Of a stretch of 64,000 bases of DNA, positions 6,417 through 62,564 are shown in pieces. Numbering within the stretch: the first letter of the stretch is position 1; every line of letters begins with the position of its first letter. The translations under genes and the position numbers were made by a program. The notes below the pieces were generated by a model that saw only the letters and a list, made by a program, of their open reading frames with translations, was not told where the DNA came from and did not search any database. Origin of the DNA: Rhodococcus triatomae (GTDB taxonomy: Bacteria; Actinomycetota; Actinomycetes; Mycobacteriales; Mycobacteriaceae); the NCBI RefSeq assembly GCF_014217785.1, contig NZ_CP048814.1:1302001-1366000 (forward strand). Reading direction: 5' to 3'.

Positions 6417-7765
6417 GCGCTCACGTCGCGCCCTGCGTGCCGCCCTCCGTCCGCGGCGAACCGGTTGCCCGGCTCCGCCAGCCCGTAGTGACCGCGCAGC
6501 GTCGTCTCGGCGTAGTCGGTCCGGAACAGCCCTCGCTGCTGCAGGATCGGCACCACTCGGTCGACGAAGTCCTCGAGCCCACCGGGCAGATACGGGGGCA
6601 TGATGTTGAATCCGTCCGCGGCGCCCTGCTCGAACCAGACCTGCAATTCGTCCGCGATCTGCTCGGGTGTGCCGGCGAAGGTACGGTGTCCGCGACCGCC
6701 GCCGAGACGCGCGATCAGCTCACGCACCGTGAGTGATTCGCTCTCCGCGAGGTCACGTACCAACTGGTAGCGGCTCTTGTGTCCCTCGATCTGTTCGAGC
6801 GGTGGCAACGGGGGCAGTGGCGCGTCGAGAGCGTGCTCGGTGAGGTCCACGCCGAGTAGGGTCGACAGCTGCCGGAGCGAGTACTCCGGCGAGATCAGGT
6901 CGGTGAAGGACTGTTCGAGCGCCTTCGCCTCCTCCTCGGTGTCCGCGATGAAGGGCACGATTCCCGGGAGCACCTTCAACTCGTCCGGGTGCCGGCCGTG
7001 CCGCACCACCCTCGCCTTCAGGTCCCGGTAGAACTCCTGCCCCTGATCGAGGGACCGTTGTGCGGTGAAGACCGCCTCGGCGTGCCGGGCGGCGAATTCC
7101 TTGCCGCTCTCCGAGGATCCGGCCTGGACCAGAAGCGGACGACCCTGCTCGGATCGCGGCGAGTTCAGCGGCCCGCGCACCCGGAAACGTTCACCGACGT
7201 GGTCGACGGGGTGCACCCTGACCGGGTCCGCGAACACACCGCTCTCGCGGTCGAGGACGACCGCACCGTCCTCCCAGCTGTCCCACAGGGCCAGCGCGAC
7301 ATCGACGAACTCCTCGGCCCGCTCGTAGCGCCCTCGGTGCTGTGGGATGCCGTCGAGACCGAAGTTCGCGGCCTCGTCGGCGCCCGCCGATGTCACGATG
7401 TTCCAGCCCGCGCGTCCTCCACTGATGTGGTCGAGGGACGCGAATTTGCGAGCGAGGTGGTAGGGATCGCCGTAGCTCGTCGAGGCGGTCGCGATGAGCC
7501 CTACCCGCTCCGTGACGACGGCGATGGCGGACAACAGCGTGACGGGCTCGAAGATCGCCTGCGAGTTGTGCTTGATCCGCGGGCCGACCGCGAGCCCGTC
7601 CGCGAAGAACACCGAATCGAGCTTGCCGCGTTCGGCGATACGGCCCAACTCCTGGAAGTGCGTGACGTCGAGCACCCGGCGGGCGTCGGTGCGCGGATGC
7701 CGCCACGCCGCCTCGTGGTGACCTACGCCCATCAGGAAGGCGTTGAGGTGGAACTGCTTGGTCAT
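6413..7765 (-). CDS. FMN-dependent monooxygenase, NtaA/SnaA/DszA family
   Basis: A 450-residue flavin monooxygenase. The opening FHLNAFLMGVGHHEAAWRHP, then DSVFFADG, ASLDHISGGRAGWNIVTS and RYERAEEFVDVALALWDSW, are hallmarks of the two-component nitrilotriacetate / pristinamycin / dibenzothiophene-sulfone monooxygenase family. These enzymes use FMNH2 supplied by a separate reductase; no reductase gene is seen here. The gene follows the ABC permease by 12 bases and overlaps the MFS gene. With a sulfonate/taurine-type importer in the same operon, C-S bond cleavage of an organosulfur compound is a reasonable inference. A paralogue at 39628-40908 is under different control. Confidence 0.9.
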   Translation of the reverse strand: MTKQFHLNAFLMGVGHHEAAWRHPRTDARRVLDVTHFQELGRIAERGKLDSVFFADGLAVGPRIKHNSQAIFEPVTLLSAIAVVTERVGLIATASTSYGDPYHLARKFASLDHISGGRAGWNIVTSAGADEAANFGLDGIPQHRGRYERAEEFVDVALALWDSWEDGAVVLDRESGVFADPVRVHPVDHVGERFRVRGPLNSPRSEQGRPLLVQAGSSESGKEFAARHAEAVFTAQRSLDQGQEFYRDLKARVVRHGRHPDELKVLPGIVPFIADTEEEAKALEQSFTDLISPEYSLRQLSTLLGVDLTEHALDAPLPPLPPLEQIEGHKSRYQLVRDLAESESLTVRELIARLGGGRGHRTFAGTPEQIADELQVWFEQGAADGFNIMPPYLPGGLEDFVDRVVPILQQRGLFRTDYAETTLRGHYGLAEPGNRFAADGGRHAGRDVSA

Positions 7766-17663: not shown

Positions 17664-17687
17664 CTCCCGATCCCGCCCGCTCCCCCT

Positions 17688-17742
17688 CTGGGTGAAGGGA
17701 CCATTCGACCGATCTGACGGGTCGAATGGTCCTTTCACCCAG
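17688..17742. terminator. Long bidirectional hairpin between convergent genes
   Basis: Arms 17688-17710 and 17720-17742 pair over 23 bp with a single G-U wobble and a nine-base loop containing TCTGA. There is no clear U-tract. It lies between the PepSY and LysE genes, which converge, so it probably stops both. Its arm sequence (GGGTGAAGG...TTCGACC) is shared with the hairpin at 39571-39621. Confidence 0.75.
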
Positions 17743-17756
17743 GGAGAGTGGGGGGA

Positions 17757-29275: not shown

Positions 29276-29329
29276 GGGCCACGCAGCTGGTTCGCCCGGC
29301 GCGGTCGTGAGGAGCCCCGAAGACCGGCG

Positions 29330-29518
29330 TCGGCGTCGAAGCGCACGAGCGATCGTGCGTGAGAGGGAACCCGGTGAGAATCCGGGACTGTCCCGCAGCG
29401 GTATGCAGGAACGACCGCCGTCATCTGCACTGGGCCACCTGCCTGGGAAGCGACGGCCAGTAGGTCCGGAGTGTGAGCAACACCCGGGGTGCCTGTGAGT
29501 CCGAAGACCTGCCGGCTG
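29330..29518 (+). ncRNA. Cobalamin (B12) riboswitch of metE
   Basis: A textbook aptamer: GAGAGGGAAC (29361), CCGGTG (29371-29376), GAATCCGG (29378-29385), the central CTGTCCCGCAGCGGTAT, and the 3' element GAGTCCGAAGACCTGCCGG (29497-29515). MetE makes methionine without B12, so repressing it when B12 is plentiful is the established logic. The roughly 140 bases between the aptamer and the metE start hold the expression platform, which I did not resolve. Confidence 0.95.
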
Positions 29519-29656
29519 TGTCGGATGCGCCGCATCCGGCGGTCCACCGCCTCGTGGAATGGGCGTGTAGACCTGATCGCGGCTGGGTAATTCGGGCTCG
29601 ACAGGTATACCCGTCTGCCGGTGGTGGCCTTTCGGTTACGCAACTGGAGAAACACC

Positions 29657-37950: not shown

Positions 37951-38562
37951 CTACCGCGCAGCGGCCCCGCTCCCGGCCCGGCGCTGCAGCAGCGACTCCA
38001 TCGGACCGGCCAGGAAGAGCAGCAGCAGACTCAGGTAACCGACGGCATCGACCGCCACGCTGAGCACGAGCGCGACGAGGAACAGGCCGGCGATGACGGC
38101 CACCGGCACCACGGACGGTGCGGCGAGCCCGCCGGTCAGCTCCGGGTTTCGCGTCAGCGACCAGGCGATCGCCGTCAGGGCCAGCGCGCTGACCGCCATC
38201 GTTCCGATGTACAGCGCGCGGGTCGCGACGTCGTCGGCTCCGTCTGCCGCCAGCGCGGTCGGGAAGGGGAGGAACACGATGGTGAACGCCCAGAAGATGA
38301 GGGCGACGTCGAACAGCCGATCGTCCTTCACGACATTGCGCAGCATTCTGTGTTGGCCCCACCAGAATCGGAGGATCACGAGAAAGCTGAGCGCGAAGGC
38401 GCCGAGCTGGCCGGCATGATCGCGGAGAAGGTCTGCCGTCCCACCGTCGTGGTCGTTGGCGATGTCGACCAGAGGCAGGATCAGCAAGGTGATCGCGATG
38501 GCCACGATCGCATCGACGAAGGTCAGTACGCGGTCCAGGTCCCGTGAGCGTTCCAGCTCCAT
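37951..38562 (-). CDS. TMEM175-family (DUF1211) ion channel-like protein
   Basis: A 203-residue membrane protein with about six helices. The opening RVLTFVDAIVAIAITLLIL resembles the TMEM175 signature R-x3-FSD-A-x-x-AIAITLL, with Val in place of the Ser of FSD. Bacterial members form potassium-permeable tetrameric channels. The frame extends upstream, but the ATG at 38562 gives the normal N-terminus. It converges on the sigma gene and diverges from the OhrR-like gene, sharing its operator region. Confidence 0.82.
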   Translation of the reverse strand: MELERSRDLDRVLTFVDAIVAIAITLLILPLVDIANDHDGGTADLLRDHAGQLGAFALSFLVILRFWWGQHRMLRNVVKDDRLFDVALIFWAFTIVFLPFPTALAADGADDVATRALYIGTMAVSALALTAIAWSLTRNPELTGGLAAPSVVPVAVIAGLFLVALVLSVAVDAVGYLSLLLLFLAGPMESLLQRRAGSGAAAR

Positions 38563-38616
38563 GAGTGCCGAGCATCCCACGCGGAGCCGAGACGCGAGAT
38601 CGAATCCAGATACATT

Positions 38617-38637
38617 GTGCACAACTTGGTTGTGCAC
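38617..38637. promoter_or_regulatory. OhrR/MarR operator
   Basis: GTGCACAAC-TTG-GTTGTGCAC is a perfect 9-bp inverted repeat with a three-base centre, eight bases before the OhrR-like start. It is well placed for autorepression and may also touch the divergent channel promoter. Confidence 0.7.
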
Positions 38638-38644
38638 TACATTG

Positions 38645-39118
38645 ATGGACGTGATCGACGACCTCGCCCTCGAACGCCAGGTGTGCTTCGCCCTGTACTC
38701 GGCGTCCCGTGCCACGACCGCCGCCTACCGGCCGATGCTCGACAACCTGGGGCTCACCTATCCGCAGTACCTGGTCATGCTGGTGCTCTGGGAACACGAC
38801 GGCAGGGGCGTTCGCGAGATCTGCCGGGCGCTGGACCTCGACACCGGGACCCTGTCGCCACTGCTCAAGAGGCTCGAGAAGCTGGAACTGATCGAACGCA
38901 CCCGGCAGTCCGACGACGAGCGCCGCGTCGAGATCCGGCTGACATCGGCGGGGACGTCGCTGCGCGAGAAGGCGGCGCCCCTCCCCTCCACACTCGCGTG
39001 CGCGACCGGGCTGTCACCCGACGAGCACGTCGCACTGCGGGAGCTGCTGACCCGGCTGACCCGCTCCCTGCGAGACACACCCCGCCCCACCCCGACACAC
39101 GGAGAAGAGAACGCATGA
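38645..39118 (+). CDS. ohrR: MarR-family peroxide sensor, OhrR type
   Basis: A 157-residue MarR protein. ERQVCFALYSASRATTAAYR at residue 9-28 carries the N-terminal Cys that OhrR uses to sense organic hydroperoxides. The winged helix follows: LTYPQYLVMLVLWEHDG, REICRALDLDTGTLSPLLKR and the wing RTRQSDDERRVEIRLT. Oxidation of the Cys releases OhrR from DNA. The gene overlaps the ohr gene by four bases, and a perfect palindrome precedes it, so the pair is autoregulated. Confidence 0.9.
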   Translation: MDVIDDLALERQVCFALYSASRATTAAYRPMLDNLGLTYPQYLVMLVLWEHDGRGVREICRALDLDTGTLSPLLKRLEKLELIERTRQSDDERRVEIRLTSAGTSLREKAAPLPSTLACATGLSPDEHVALRELLTRLTRSLRDTPRPTPTHGEENA

Positions 39119-39537
39119 ACATCGTCTACACCGCCGAGGCCCTCGCCACCGGAGCGGGACGCAACGGGCACGCCCGCACCTCCGACGGCCGGCTCGACCT
39201 CGAACTGGCGATACCCACCGAGATGGGCGGGTCCGGGGACGGCACCAACCCGGAACAGCTGTTCGCCGCCGGATACGCCGCCTGCTTCCATTCCGCGCTG
39301 CAACTCGTCGCCCGCCAGGAGAAGGCGGACGCCACCGATTCCGCGGTCGGGGCACGGGTCGGTATCGGCCCGAACGGTGACGGCGGATTCGGGCTGGCAG
39401 TGACCCTCGAAGTCACCCTCCCGAATCTCCCCCACGACGAGGCGCTGGCACTGACGCAGAAAGCCCACCAGGTGTGCCCCTACTCCAACGCCACCCGCGG
39501 CAACATCGACGTGACCCTCGAGGTCACCGAAGACTGA
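39115..39537 (+). CDS. ohr: Organic hydroperoxide resistance protein (Ohr/OsmC)
   Basis: A 140-residue Ohr-type thiol peroxidase. Both redox cysteines are present in their family contexts, AACFHSAL (about residue 60) and VCPYSNATRGN (about residue 121). The N-terminal TGAGRNGHARTSDGRLDLEL, the Arg region and NPEQLFAAGYA are also typical. Ohr reduces organic hydroperoxides using dihydrolipoamide-type thiols. It is translated from an ATG overlapping the regulator's stop, behind GGAGAAGAGA. Confidence 0.93.
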   Translation: MNIVYTAEALATGAGRNGHARTSDGRLDLELAIPTEMGGSGDGTNPEQLFAAGYAACFHSALQLVARQEKADATDSAVGARVGIGPNGDGGFGLAVTLEVTLPNLPHDEALALTQKAHQVCPYSNATRGNIDVTLEVTED

Positions 39538-39570: not shown

Positions 39571-39621
39571 GGGTGAAGGTGGCCTTCGACCGGTCTGACC
39601 GGTCGAAGGCCACCTTCACCC
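39571..39621. terminator. Perfect 23-bp hairpin between convergent genes
   Basis: Arms 39571-39593 and 39599-39621 are exact complements around the five-base loop TCTGA. It fills the gap between ohr and the convergent monooxygenase gene. The sequence resembles the hairpin at 17688-17742. Confidence 0.78.
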
Positions 39622-39627
39622 AGGAGA

Positions 39628-40908
39628 TCAGCCGGCGAGGTGGCCGCGCAGCGTGGCCGCGGTGTACTCGGTGCGGAACAGGCCGCGACGGGCGAGCACC
39701 GGGATCACCTCGTCGACGAAGTCCTCCAGATGGTCCGGGTACCGCGGAGGCATGAGGTTGAACCCGTCCGCCGCACCGCTGCGGAACCAGTCCTCGATCT
39801 CGTCGGCGATCGACTCGGGCGTCCCGATCATGGTGGCGTGGCCGCCACCGGCCGCGAGCGTTCCCAACAGCTCCCGCACCGTCGGGCGGTCCTTCTCGAC
39901 GATCGTGAGGATCGTCTGGTACCTGCCCTGGGGACCGGTGAACTCCGACAGCGGCGGGAGTGGAGGAACCGGGGCATCGAGATCCCACGCATGTGCATCC
40001 TGCTGCACGAACAGCGACAGCTGATCCAGCGACTGGGCCGTCGGCAGCAACGCGTCGAGTTCGGCCTTCTTCGCCCGCGCCTCCTCGACCGTCGAACCCA
40101 CGTACGTCACCAGGCCAGGCATCACCGTCACCGCATCCGGATCACGCCCGGCGTCGCGCACCCGTCGCCTCACGTCGCGGCGGTACCCGATTGCCGAATC
40201 CTTGTCGTAGGCCACCGAATAGATGCCCTCGGCGCAGCGTGCGGCGAGATCCCGTCCCGGACCCGACGCCCCTGCCTGGAACAGCACCGGCCGCCCCTGC
40301 GGTGAGCGCGGGACGGTGAGGGGCCCGTCGACCCGGAAGTGCGCGCCCCGGTGATCGATCGACCGCACCTGGTCCGGATCCGCGAACCGTCCGTTCCGAT
40401 CGAACTCGAGTGCCTGTTCTCCCCACGAATCCCACAGGGCCAGAGCGACATCGACGAACTCTCCGGCCCGTGCGTAGCGATCCTCGTGGGCAGGCATGGA
40501 CTCGAGGCCGTAGTTGCGGGCCTCCGCATCGAACATCGACGTCACGACGTTCCACCCGATCCTGCCGCCGCTGATGTGATCGAGCGAGGCCAGCATCCGC
40601 GCGGCCGGGAAGGGTTGGGAGAACGTCGTCGAGACGGTGGTGACCAGCCCGACCCGCTCGGTCGCGCGGGCCATCGCCGACAGCGCGGTCAACGGTTCGA
40701 GAAACCACCAGGCACCGGCGGCAGGATCGCGCACCGCGTGGCCGTCCGCGAAGAACACCGCGTCGAGCAGGCCCCGCTCCGCGGTCCGGGCCAGTTCCTC
40801 GTAGTAGCCGATGTCGCCGAGTCGTTCGGCCGGCGAGTCCGGGTGCCGCCACGCTGCCCCGTGGTGCCCGCATCCCCACAGGAACGCGTTGAAGTGCAAC
40901 TGCCGCAT
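39628..40908 (-). CDS. FMN-dependent monooxygenase, NtaA/SnaA/DszA family (second copy)
   Basis: A 426-residue flavin monooxygenase paralogous to the one at 6413: LHFNAFLWGCGHHGAAWRHP, DAVFFADGHAV, ASLDHISGGRIGWNVVTS, RYARAGEFVDVALALWDSW and the C-terminal GFNLMPPRYPDHLEDFVDEV. It needs reduced FMN from a separate reductase. It lies one base after an SDR gene, both behind a TPP riboswitch. That places the enzyme in a thiamin-responsive operon, so the substrate may be thiamin, a breakdown product or a precursor. This is inference; the protein family itself gives no such hint. Confidence 0.88.
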   Translation of the reverse strand: MRQLHFNAFLWGCGHHGAAWRHPDSPAERLGDIGYYEELARTAERGLLDAVFFADGHAVRDPAAGAWWFLEPLTALSAMARATERVGLVTTVSTTFSQPFPAARMLASLDHISGGRIGWNVVTSMFDAEARNYGLESMPAHEDRYARAGEFVDVALALWDSWGEQALEFDRNGRFADPDQVRSIDHRGAHFRVDGPLTVPRSPQGRPVLFQAGASGPGRDLAARCAEGIYSVAYDKDSAIGYRRDVRRRVRDAGRDPDAVTVMPGLVTYVGSTVEEARAKKAELDALLPTAQSLDQLSLFVQQDAHAWDLDAPVPPLPPLSEFTGPQGRYQTILTIVEKDRPTVRELLGTLAAGGGHATMIGTPESIADEIEDWFRSGAADGFNLMPPRYPDHLEDFVDEVIPVLARRGLFRTEYTAATLRGHLAG

Positions 40909-40909
40909 C

Positions 40910-41674
40910 TCAGTCCTTCACCAGGCCGCCGTCGACGACCAGGTTCTGGCCGGTCACCGCGCGCGACCACGGCGCGGCGAAGAACAGCACCGCGTCCGCG
41001 AACTCGTCGGGTGTGGTGACACTGCGCAGCGGGGTGCTCGTCGCGATGAGGTCGAACACCTCCTCCGGCGTGGCGGCGCTGGCATCGGTCGTGCGCAGCA
41101 GCCCCCCGGAGACCATGTTGACGGTGATCCCGTCCGGCCCGAGTTCGCTCGAGAGCGTGCGGGTCAACGACAGCGCCGCCGCCTTCGCGGCCGTGTAGTC
41201 GTGGTACGGCACGACGGGATTCTGGAACAGATTGGTACCGACGTTGACGATCCGCCCGAAGCCGGCGGACCGCATGCCCGGCAGCGCCGCCTGCGTCGTG
41301 TGGAGCATGCCCTGGACGCTGCCGCGCAGTTGCGCCTCGAACGCGTTCCACCCGATGCTGTCGGCCTTCTCCCTGGCATCACCGTTGAACGAGAACTCCG
41401 GCAGCGCGTTGTTGACCACGGTGGTGACGGCGCCACCGAACCGCTCCTGCCCCGCGGCCACCAGTGCGGACACCGACTCGGCGTCCGTCACGTCCCCCTG
41501 CACCGCGACGACGCGGTCGGTACCGATCTCCGCGACCAACCGTGCCGCCGCGTCCTCACTGCGATACCAGTTCACCACCACCCGGGCACCCTCGCGGGCG
41601 AAGGCCCGGGTGATCGCGGCGCCGAGGCCTCGGGCCCCACCGGTGACCAGCACGATTTGTTCGTCGATACGCAT
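40910..41674 (-). CDS. Short-chain dehydrogenase/reductase under TPP control
   Basis: A 254-residue classical SDR: cofactor motif VTGGARGLGAAI (TGxxxGxG), NNALPEFSF in the NNAG position, and the active-site Tyr and Lys in YHDYTAAKAAALSL. The C-terminus has GQNLVVDGGLVKD. It resembles 3-oxoacyl-ACP reductases, but the Asn-Asn-Ala-Leu motif and lone position suggest another substrate. The ATG at 41674 follows GAGGCGAGAG, which can be hidden in a short stem (41678-41698), a likely expression platform for the riboswitch upstream. Confidence 0.9.
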   Translation of the reverse strand: MRIDEQIVLVTGGARGLGAAITRAFAREGARVVVNWYRSEDAAARLVAEIGTDRVVAVQGDVTDAESVSALVAAGQERFGGAVTTVVNNALPEFSFNGDAREKADSIGWNAFEAQLRGSVQGMLHTTQAALPGMRSAGFGRIVNVGTNLFQNPVVPYHDYTAAKAAALSLTRTLSSELGPDGITVNMVSGGLLRTTDASAATPEEVFDLIATSTPLRSVTTPDEFADAVLFFAAPWSRAVTGQNLVVDGGLVKD

Positions 41675-41677
41675 CTC

Positions 41678-41698
41678 TCGCCTCTTTCACAAGGGCGA
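41678..41698 (-). promoter_or_regulatory. Shine-Dalgarno-sequestering stem below the TPP riboswitch
   Basis: On the minus strand TCGCC (41698-41694) can pair with GGCGA (41682-41678), which is part of the ribosome site GAGGCGAGAG of the SDR gene. Such a stem would let TPP binding block translation. The alternative pairing with the aptamer was not worked out. Confidence 0.45.
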
Positions 41699-41747
41699 AG
41701 GAACATCGGCACCCACGAACTCCGCTACCGGAAATCGCCCGCACCAC

Positions 41748-41828
41748 GCGACATCCCTTCGCCGGAATTACCCGGTTCAGGTTCGACGGGTGTGTTCTCA
41801 GCCGCCTGGTGGCAGCACCCCGTGTCAC
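41748..41828 (-). ncRNA. TPP (thiamin pyrophosphate) riboswitch
   Basis: The THI-box is nearly complete on the minus strand: GGGGTGC (41821-41815), GGCTGAGA (41803-41796), ACCCG, then ACCTGAACCGGGTAATTCCG (41783-41764) and GCGAAGGGA (41762-41754). Stem P1 is closed by GTGACA (41828-41823) and TGTCGC (41753-41748), six pairs with one G-U. A -10 box TACACT at 41845-41840 lies just upstream, so the RNA has its own promoter. It precedes the SDR and monooxygenase genes. Confidence 0.95.
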
Positions 41829-41862
41829 TTTCGGCGCCCAGTGTAGGCGCACCGGTTCGCGT

Positions 41863-57340: not shown

Positions 57341-58306
57341 ATGGCGAGGGACCTGACCCAACTCGAGCTCCTGCAAGAGCTGGCGCCGGTGGCCGAGGAG
57401 AACGTCAACCGCCACATCTCCATGGCCAAGGAATGGCACCCGCACGACTACGTCCCGTGGGACGAAGGCCGCAACTTCGCCGCGATGGGCGGGGTGGACT
57501 GGGACATCGAGCAGTCCCAGTTGGACGAGGTCGCCCGGGCAGCGATGATCACCAACCTTCTCACCGAGGACAACCTGCCCTCCTACCACCGTGAGATCGC
57601 GGAGAACTTCTCCCGCGACGGCGCCTGGGGCACCTGGGTCGGTCGGTGGACCGCGGAGGAGAACCGCCACGGCATCGTGATGCGCGACTACCTGGTCGTG
57701 ACCCGCGCGGTGGACCCCGTCGAGCTCGAGCGGGCCCGCATGGAACACATGACCAACGGCTTCGCGACGCCGGACGAGATCAACGAGTCCGGTGCCGGCT
57801 TCCTGCACTCGGTCTCGTACGTCACGTTCCAGGAGCTCGCCACTCGCGTGAGCCACCGCAACACCGGCAAGGCTTGCAAGGATCCGATCGCGGACAAGAT
57901 GCTCCAGCGCATCGCGGCCGACGAGAACCTGCACATGATCTTCTACCGCAACATGTGCGGTGCCGCGCTCGACCTGGCGCCCGATCAGACCCTCGAGGCG
58001 ATCAACAACATCGTCCAGAACTTCCAGATGCCCGGCGCCGGCATGCCGAACTTCCGCCGCAACGGCGTTCTCATGGCCAAGCACGGCATCTACGACCTGC
58101 GCCAGCACCTCGAAGAGGTCGTCATGCCCGTTCTGCGCAAGTGGAACATCTTCGAGCGCACCGACTTCACCGCGCGCGGTGAAGCGGTGCGGGAGAGCCT
58201 CGGAGCCTTCCTCGAGAACCTCGAAGGTCAGGCCACGAAGTTCGAGGAGCAGCGCGACCGGATGCTCGCCCGCGAGGCCAAGAAGCGCGAACAGCGCGCC
58301 TCCTGA
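57341..58306 (+). CDS. Acyl-ACP desaturase, DesA family
   Basis: A 321-residue ferritin-like di-iron desaturase similar to mycobacterial DesA1/DesA2. The iron ligands sit in WTAEENRHG (ExxH, about residue 108) and RIAADENLHM (about residue 192). HDYVPWDEGRNFA near residue 34 is typical. DesA proteins introduce double bonds into acyl-ACPs, feeding membrane lipid and meromycolate synthesis, and rely on a ferredoxin. The ATG at 57341 follows GGAGG; an upstream in-frame start adds 13 residues without a ribosome site. A palindrome precedes it. Confidence 0.92.
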   Translation: MARDLTQLELLQELAPVAEENVNRHISMAKEWHPHDYVPWDEGRNFAAMGGVDWDIEQSQLDEVARAAMITNLLTEDNLPSYHREIAENFSRDGAWGTWVGRWTAEENRHGIVMRDYLVVTRAVDPVELERARMEHMTNGFATPDEINESGAGFLHSVSYVTFQELATRVSHRNTGKACKDPIADKMLQRIAADENLHMIFYRNMCGAALDLAPDQTLEAINNIVQNFQMPGAGMPNFRRNGVLMAKHGIYDLRQHLEEVVMPVLRKWNIFERTDFTARGEAVRESLGAFLENLEGQATKFEEQRDRMLAREAKKREQRAS

Positions 58307-62515: not shown

Positions 62516-62564
62516 GATGAATGGCACTTTCATCGCCTCTGAGGCGATGAAAGTGCCATTCATC
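62516..62564. terminator. Perfect 23-bp hairpin between phoU and pstB
   Basis: Arms 62516-62538 and 62542-62564 are exact complements around a three-base loop, between the convergent phoU and pstB genes. No U-tract is present on either side. Confidence 0.78.

Follow-up and report, generated by a model that had tools for sequence, protein, structure and literature searches.

This report concerns a two-gene operon in a 64,000-nucleotide stretch of the Rhodococcus triatomae genome (contig NZ_CP048814.1, positions 1,302,001 to 1,366,000; hereafter the window), in which a thiamin pyrophosphate (TPP) riboswitch precedes the genes for a short-chain dehydrogenase/reductase (SDR) and a flavin mononucleotide (FMN)-dependent luciferase-like monooxygenase (LLM). 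The adjacency of riboswitch, SDR and LLM is not a chance one, and it is well supported that the pair belongs to the thiamin regulon and is widely conserved. We favor the possibility, with slightly better than even confidence, that SDR and LLM would form a thiamin-pyrimidine salvage operon under TPP feedback control. The operon consists of the following features:

41737-41832, minus strand: TPP riboswitch aptamer, RF00059 (cmscan 67.9 bits, gathering score 54.3)
40910-41674, minus strand: SDR-family reductase of 254 amino acids, NCBIfam PRK08642 (434.5 bits, cut-off 292)
39628-40908, minus strand: NtaA/DmoA-family FMN-dependent monooxygenase (the LLM) of 426 amino acids, TIGR03860 (529.4 bits, cut-off 279.7)

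An earlier note, made from the sequence, had placed a near-complete THI-box at 41748-41828. This falls within the aptamer, which a search of the whole window with Rfam found to be complete (model positions 1-105 of 105, E 3.3e-11) and well above the gathering score. The aptamer is separated by 62 bases from the start of the SDR gene, whose stop codon is followed after a single base by the LLM gene; the order that the note had read here, an SDR and then an FMN-dependent monooxygenase, is upheld by matches of both proteins over their family cut-offs. TPP elements are scarce in the source genome (4 in 4.77 Mb), and the other three precede thiO, tenA and thiD. Nine LLM relatives are encoded there at E <= 1e-60, the window LLM included, and only the window LLM has a TPP element.

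The arrangement recurs in other species. We scanned 84,980 genomes, one for each species; the 504 pattern matches included 397 relatives of the LLM, of which the 80 best-scoring were analyzed. These 80 loci were surveyed for TPP elements with a covariance model derived from 26 such elements; eight of the loci contributed to that model and so match by construction. A same-strand TPP element lies upstream in 76 of the best 80 LLM loci, in both Actinomycetota and Pseudomonadota, and the SDR gene adjoins the LLM gene in 74, so that the order riboswitch-SDR-monooxygenase is kept well beyond the window. At 73 of the 76 loci no more than 143 bases lie between the aptamer and the start of the first gene; L124, L149 and L116 are the exceptions. 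Genera with TPP-preceded loci include Rhodococcus, Dietzia, Nocardiopsis, Arthrobacter, Kocuria and Halomonas; Achromobacter carries the pair, or the LLM, without an element of its own. The four loci that lack an upstream element are L101, on a 3.6-kb contig, and L131, L134 and L140 of Achromobacter, at which an opposite-strand TPP element serves a nearby symporter gene. When Rfam was run on 11 of the 80 loci, mostly doubtful ones, it found a same-strand element in eight, none at L086 and L101, and one on the opposite strand only at L131. L140 (Achromobacter pulmonis) has two opposite-strand TPP elements, one beside an LLM fragment and one beside a full LLM gene, perhaps the result of a local duplication. 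The aptamers of L086, L087 (Rhodococcoides fascians A44A) and L093 are without the GCGNAGGGA core; L086 gives no Rfam match at the gathering score, and the SDR locus of the same genome, L166, scores 52.9 against 54.3. These riboswitches are perhaps decaying.

Six of the 80 loci have an unlinked SDR: three in Dietzia, one in Nocardiopsis (with an SDR remnant in place) and two in Achromobacter. All six genomes encode an SDR orthologue elsewhere (69-74% identity), and in four of them the separated SDR and LLM genes each have a TPP element of their own. The solo SDR gene of the two Achromobacter genomes follows a GntR-family gene. At the solo SDR loci of Dietzia (L163-L165) the TPP element has a guanidine-III riboswitch roughly 1 kb away.

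Within the genus, 22 of 28 genomes, the source genome included, encode the window LLM or an orthologue that is at least 74% identical. In 21 of the 22 a TPP element stands in front of the gene (the source genome, 18 of the 19 loci to which Rfam was applied and two more placed by position). The single same-genus operon without a riboswitch is that of G015 (L018/L059), where the aptamer is absent, the flanks of the leader can still be aligned with relatives and both genes are intact; this is perhaps a natural derepressed operon left by a clean loss of the aptamer. None of the six same-genus genomes that lack the LLM, one of them only 75% complete, has an SDR match at E <= 1e-40. Early samples had suggested that the LLM was nearly restricted to the genus: a search of 298 genomes of the order at E <= 1e-155 gave one match besides the source genome, and one of 396 genomes of the phylum at E <= 1e-130 gave paralogues only besides the window gene. 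These searches scored just five and four candidates per genome and may undercount, and the restriction was overturned by the scan of named species.

The TIGR03860 match spans the entire profile (1-422 of 422) in the window LLM, and at E <= 0.001 Pfam finds the luciferase-like family alone in the LLM and adh_short_C2, adh_short, KR and Epimerase in the SDR; no TenA or amidohydrolase fold was detected in either protein at that threshold. NtaA-type enzymes use FMNH2 and O2 to oxidize a carbon beside nitrogen or sulfur, which leads to cleavage of the C-N or C-S bond and often leaves an aldehyde. In the SDR, T147, Y160 and K164 occupy columns that are at least 97% conserved among 75 sequences, and the Tyr-xxx-Lys motif of classical SDRs is present as Y160 and K164. 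The general rule for SDRs places a catalytic Ser 13 residues before the Tyr; here that position, 147, is Thr. Position 37 is Arg in 44 of the 75 sequences, and the window protein has Tyr37 followed by Arg38, which suggests NADPH as the probable cofactor. A role of the SDR as flavin reductase for the LLM was considered and set aside on family knowledge.

In a tree built by a quick method, a branch with 100% support splits the LLMs of the operon clade from three paralogues. The three paralogues examined for a TPP element (L026-L028, 50-53% identity) have none within 1.5 kb. The clade carries the motif CGHH, with H15 and H16 at least 97% conserved and C13 in 71 of 81 sequences. Proteobacterial LLMs fall into one group of 27 (support 90) together with sequences from Nocardiopsis, Cryobacterium Y50 and Glaciibacter, which suggests transfer, though with only moderate support. 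One of the paralogues, L028, is a second NtaA-type LLM of the window (6485-7759, minus strand, 53% identical).

What the pair might do can be approached through the thiamin genes around it and in the rest of the genome. The source genome (G000) gave no match to ThiC and none to ThiM, and it encodes ThiG, ThiO, ThiD, ThiE and TenA; one TPP element heads a cluster of tenA with genes for an NMT1-type binding protein, a permease and an ATPase. Because ThiG, ThiD, ThiE and TenA are present and ThiC and ThiM are unmatched, the source genome, as judged by known enzymes, is predicted to be able to use a pyrimidine precursor and not free thiazole. We looked for the same genes in 51 LLM genomes (G000 and the genomes of 50 of the 80 named loci, picked to cover non-Rhodococcus species); the ThiC and ThiG counts cover LLM-bearing genomes alone. 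ThiC was over the cut-off in 30, represented by fragments in three and unmatched in 18; ThiG was strong (E < 1e-80) in 49; a TenA-family match was found in 39 and a ThiM-family match over the cut-off in 19. Five genomes (G720, G726, G727, G729 and G752) have ThiG and neither ThiC nor TenA. The idea that the operon replaces TenA is unsupported, given the 39 genomes with a TenA-family match. Fragments of thiC occur in G705 (L088, Dietzia alimentaria; with an in-frame stop) and G732 (L133, Cryobacterium sp. Y29), and in both of these genomes, which bear the operon, the gene is perhaps in decay.

The earlier note had also pointed to thiamin transport, thiD or thiM genes as informative neighbors, and these do occur close to the pair in other species. 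Of 16 proteobacterial loci, 14 have a sodium:solute symporter gene next to the LLM; all 14 symporters are over the PF00474 cut-off, and a TPP element precedes each of the 14 genes. The five symporters scanned against TIGR00813 fell below its cut-off. The two proteobacterial loci without a symporter are L147, with an opposite-strand element near the locus end, and L154. According to two papers, ThiV, a member of the sodium:solute symporter superfamily, is the likely transporter of 4-amino-5-hydroxymethyl-2-methylpyrimidine (HMP) or of pyrimidine (PMC11452348, on SAR11; PMC10881298). Among the Actinomycetota, the operon at L116 reads TPP-thiM-thiE-SDR-LLM, so that two thiamin genes lie between aptamer and pair, and at L149 the pair is followed by TPP-thiD-MFS (major facilitator superfamily)-thiM-thiE. 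At L125 a TPP match that is weak (26.7 bits) comes with a thiO-like gene and thiG, after which a TPP element precedes an ABC_cobalt-family gene, and L135 has the same gene clusters from thiG on. There is a TPP-NMT1-permease cluster at L133 and a divergent TPP-ABC_cobalt gene at L124.

We propose the following scheme for the pair. The LLM, supplied with FMNH2 by a reductase encoded elsewhere and with O2, would hydroxylate the 5-methylene carbon of a 4-amino-2-methylpyrimidine bearing a nitrogen or sulfur substituent (NH2, NH-CHO, S, SO3 or thiazolium). Candidate substrates would be aminomethylpyrimidine, its N-formyl form, a sulfur or sulfonate adduct, or oxidized thiamin. The C-N or C-S bond would then break to give the pyrimidine 5-aldehyde, and the SDR, which is well placed for aldehyde reduction because it is adjacent to an NtaA-type enzyme, would reduce this to HMP. 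ThiD would phosphorylate the HMP and ThiE would join the product to the thiazole that comes from ThiG. We infer the pyrimidine as the moiety, the bond that breaks, the chemistry, the direction of the SDR reaction and the switching mechanism described below. The earlier note had suggested salvage or degradation of a thiamin-related pyrimidine or thiazole, or repair of an oxidized form; salvage of the pyrimidine fits best, and the thiazole part of the suggestion fits badly, with no ThiM match in the source genome and ThiG present. The repeated pairing with a ThiV-type symporter points to uptake and use.

Several observations weigh against pyrimidine salvage as the function of the pair. The operon does not track the loss of ThiC within the genus, ThiC being absent from 7 of 22 genomes with the operon and from 3 of 6 without it, and among the 51 LLM genomes a route to HMP is often already present, judging by the ThiC (30/51) and TenA-family (39/51) counts. 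HMP auxotrophy is described in PMC11452348 as the commonest thiamin auxotrophy anyway. Furthermore, HMP was reported (PMC2947987) not to restore growth of the thiC-less Rhodococcus equi 103S; the operon content of R. equi lies outside our comparison. The solo SDRs of the two Achromobacter genomes have no TPP element in the 16 kb around them. Finally, the substrate of the window copy of the LLM may have changed. This protein, whose reading frame is intact, departs from columns that are at least 95% conserved among 81 sequences at T98, H101, H133, C305, R335 and Q406, and H101, H133 and C305, invariant in the other 80, are replaced in the window LLM only (P101, Y133 and A305). Two sequences have more departures in total, L149 (nine) and L152 (eight).

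The presence of thiM in the L116 operon and near that of L149, whose genome has no true ThiG, is a further point of this kind and makes a role on the thiazole side possible at those two loci. As a general account, in which the LLM would free or repair the hydroxyethylthiazole moiety, we consider this quite doubtful: ThiM-family genes are over the cut-off in only 19 of the 51 genomes and unmatched in the source genome, and nearly all (49/51) have a strong ThiG. TPP control and thiamin neighbors would suit any thiamin-related role, including one in repair or detoxification, where the pair would act on oxidized thiamin or an antivitamin and so protect or restore thiamin when TPP is low. In part of the genus the operon adjoins genes of the peroxide-response type: of 13 large loci from the genus or near it, 7 include an OsmC-family gene and 6 an OhrR-like one (one of each identified). 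However, ohr genes do not adjoin the operon in other contexts, repression by TPP would be unexpected for a detoxifying enzyme, and the recurrent ThiV-type symporter points to uptake and use. On balance this explanation is unlikely, if less so than the thiazole one.

A bolder alternative is that the pair carries out an O2-dependent synthesis of the pyrimidine, making HMP from a common metabolite in place of ThiC, as a bacterial equivalent of the THI5-type route of fungi. The 18 genomes without a ThiC match and the three with fragments only would accord with this, as would the five with ThiG and neither ThiC nor TenA, whose thiamin synthesis it would explain if true. Nevertheless, 30 of the 51 keep ThiC, the proteobacterial partner gene is a transporter, which suggests salvage, and thiC-less R. 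equi strains are reported to need thiamin (PMC2947987), with the same limit on operon content. We therefore judge replacement of ThiC to be very improbable. As for a chance adjacency, which the earlier note had named as fatal to its idea, or a mis-annotated riboswitch, the one same-genus genome in 22 without an aptamer and the damaged cores at L086, L087 and L093 are what can be said for it. It is countered by the elements at 76 of 80 loci and by the separate element for each gene in the four genomes with unlinked genes, and we attach next to no credence to it. We return, then, to salvage of the thiamin pyrimidine as our preferred account. The supply of HMP in bacteria without ThiC, at times also without TenA, is a live question in vitamin B1 cycling, and the pair offers a testable candidate in the form of two soluble enzymes and a short substrate list. 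If the account is true, it would add an oxidative branch to vitamin B1 salvage, it would provide a substrate class for an NtaA-type clade for which none was found, and the use of pyrimidine vitamers would become predictable from genomes.

The leader of the window operon suggests how TPP might control it. The sequences concerned, together with the flanking features of the transcription unit, are as follows:

41756-41763, minus strand: 3' box of the aptamer, GGCGAAGG, proposed switching strand and exact complement of the 8-mer at 41694-41701
41694-41701, minus strand: CCTTCGCC, proposed switching sequence, which would pair with the aptamer box (ON) or the Shine-Dalgarno region (OFF)
41677-41686, minus strand: Shine-Dalgarno region AGAGGCGAGA, 5' of the SDR start, read from the sequence
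41840-41845, minus strand: -10-like hexamer TACACT, read from the sequence 7 bases 5' of the aptamer (tentative)
39571-39621, no strand assigned: perfect 25-bp inverted repeat, arms 100% complementary with a 1-nt spacer, directly 3' of the LLM stop

Our model of switching comes from folding alternative states of one sequence, that of the window. The complementarity of GGCGAAGG and CCTTCGCC is unusual, in that an 8-mer was reached in 0 of 200 shuffles. In the minimum free energy fold computed for the complete leader, CCTTCGCC is base-paired to the aptamer box; of the nine Shine-Dalgarno bases AGAGGCGAG, the first four are 77-92% free, the other five being at most 29% free and mostly paired. When the aptamer was removed in folding, eight of the nine bases of AGAGGCGAG were at least 77% paired. 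When TPP is scarce, GGCGAAGG would thus pair with CCTTCGCC, the early Shine-Dalgarno bases would be exposed and SDR and LLM would be translated; when TPP is bound, CCTTCGCC would be freed and, by the folding, would mask the Shine-Dalgarno region. Among 74 sequences, those of the window and 73 loci, a switch of this 8-mer type reached p <= 0.05 by shuffles in only 22 (three further loci had no recognizable core), and on these predictions the expression platform differs among loci. In L021, L022 and L112, for example, a G-rich Shine-Dalgarno sequence lies, by eye, within the aptamer with the start codon directly after it. Given the folding of the window leader and these in-aptamer Shine-Dalgarno sequences, control of translation, in varied form, appears likely.

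With regard to transcription, the earlier note had assigned the riboswitch its own -10 box, and this assignment is tentative. By eye, TACACT (seven) or TAGACT (two) stands at the -10 position in 9 of 11 aligned upstream regions; a scan with the sigma-70 consensus returned no promoter, the hexamer at 41840-41845 included. A search of the minus strand between 39400 and 42000 for intrinsic terminators gave none. The inverted repeat at 39571-39621 sits between the convergent LLM and ohr genes and is a possible bidirectional transcription end. This repeat and another long one at 17676-17754 share a GGGTGAAGG stretch, and a similar string was seen by eye in the thiE region; a perfect 24-bp inverted repeat of different sequence lies at 62516-62564. 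The convergent genes downstream of the LLM (38456-39537) encode a MarR-type regulator and an OsmC-like protein. In several relatives (for example L060, 7345-8252) the regulator/OsmC-like pair instead lies upstream in divergent orientation, and close to the promoter there is a palindrome, TTGCACACAA-N5-TTGTGTGCAA. Several Rhodococcus operons have the palindrome upstream, where it probably serves the adjacent ohrR-like gene as its operator. Elsewhere in the window are a cobalamin riboswitch (29320-29530, plus strand, 84.2 bits) and a match to the ASdes small RNA family (57659-57726, minus strand, 83.8 bits) that may lie in a coding gene.

There may be precedent for the regulated SDR. In comparative work attributed to Rodionov and colleagues in 2002, oarX was reportedly a THI-regulated gene resembling those for 3-oxoacyl-ACP reductases, and PRK08642 is itself a 3-oxoacyl-ACP reductase by its NCBIfam name, so the window SDR may be the same gene. 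We know of no monooxygenase partner of oarX, and in the literature searched oarX was not found together with thiamin. This search, by title, start of abstract and term counts with supplements outside its scope, also returned no description of a TPP-controlled operon of an SDR and an NtaA-type monooxygenase, which is weak evidence of absence.

Among known systems, the nearest in purpose would be the TenA/YlmB/ThiXYZ salvage pathway, which imports pyrimidine vitamers, N-formyl-4-amino-5-aminomethyl-2-methylpyrimidine (FAMP) and 4-amino-5-aminomethyl-2-methylpyrimidine (AmMP), and converts them to HMP. The source genome has a likeness of this system in its TPP-tenA-NMT1-permease-ATPase cluster. 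TenA and YlmB are hydrolases, whereas the window operon encodes a flavin oxygenase and an SDR, of unrelated families. ThiV, a sodium:solute symporter behind a TPP element, has its parallel in the symporters beside the LLM in proteobacteria; the likeness to the SAR11 ThiV is at the level of the family, and in the window the operon itself is without a symporter. By its TIGR03860 match and its solved relatives the LLM is a member of the NtaA/DmoA family, along with the nitrilotriacetate and EDTA monooxygenases, YtnJ, DszA/BdsA, DmoA and riboflavin lyase, the last of which acts on another vitamin. Unlike its paralogues L026-L028, the operon LLM lies behind a TPP element, and its clade carries the CGHH motif.

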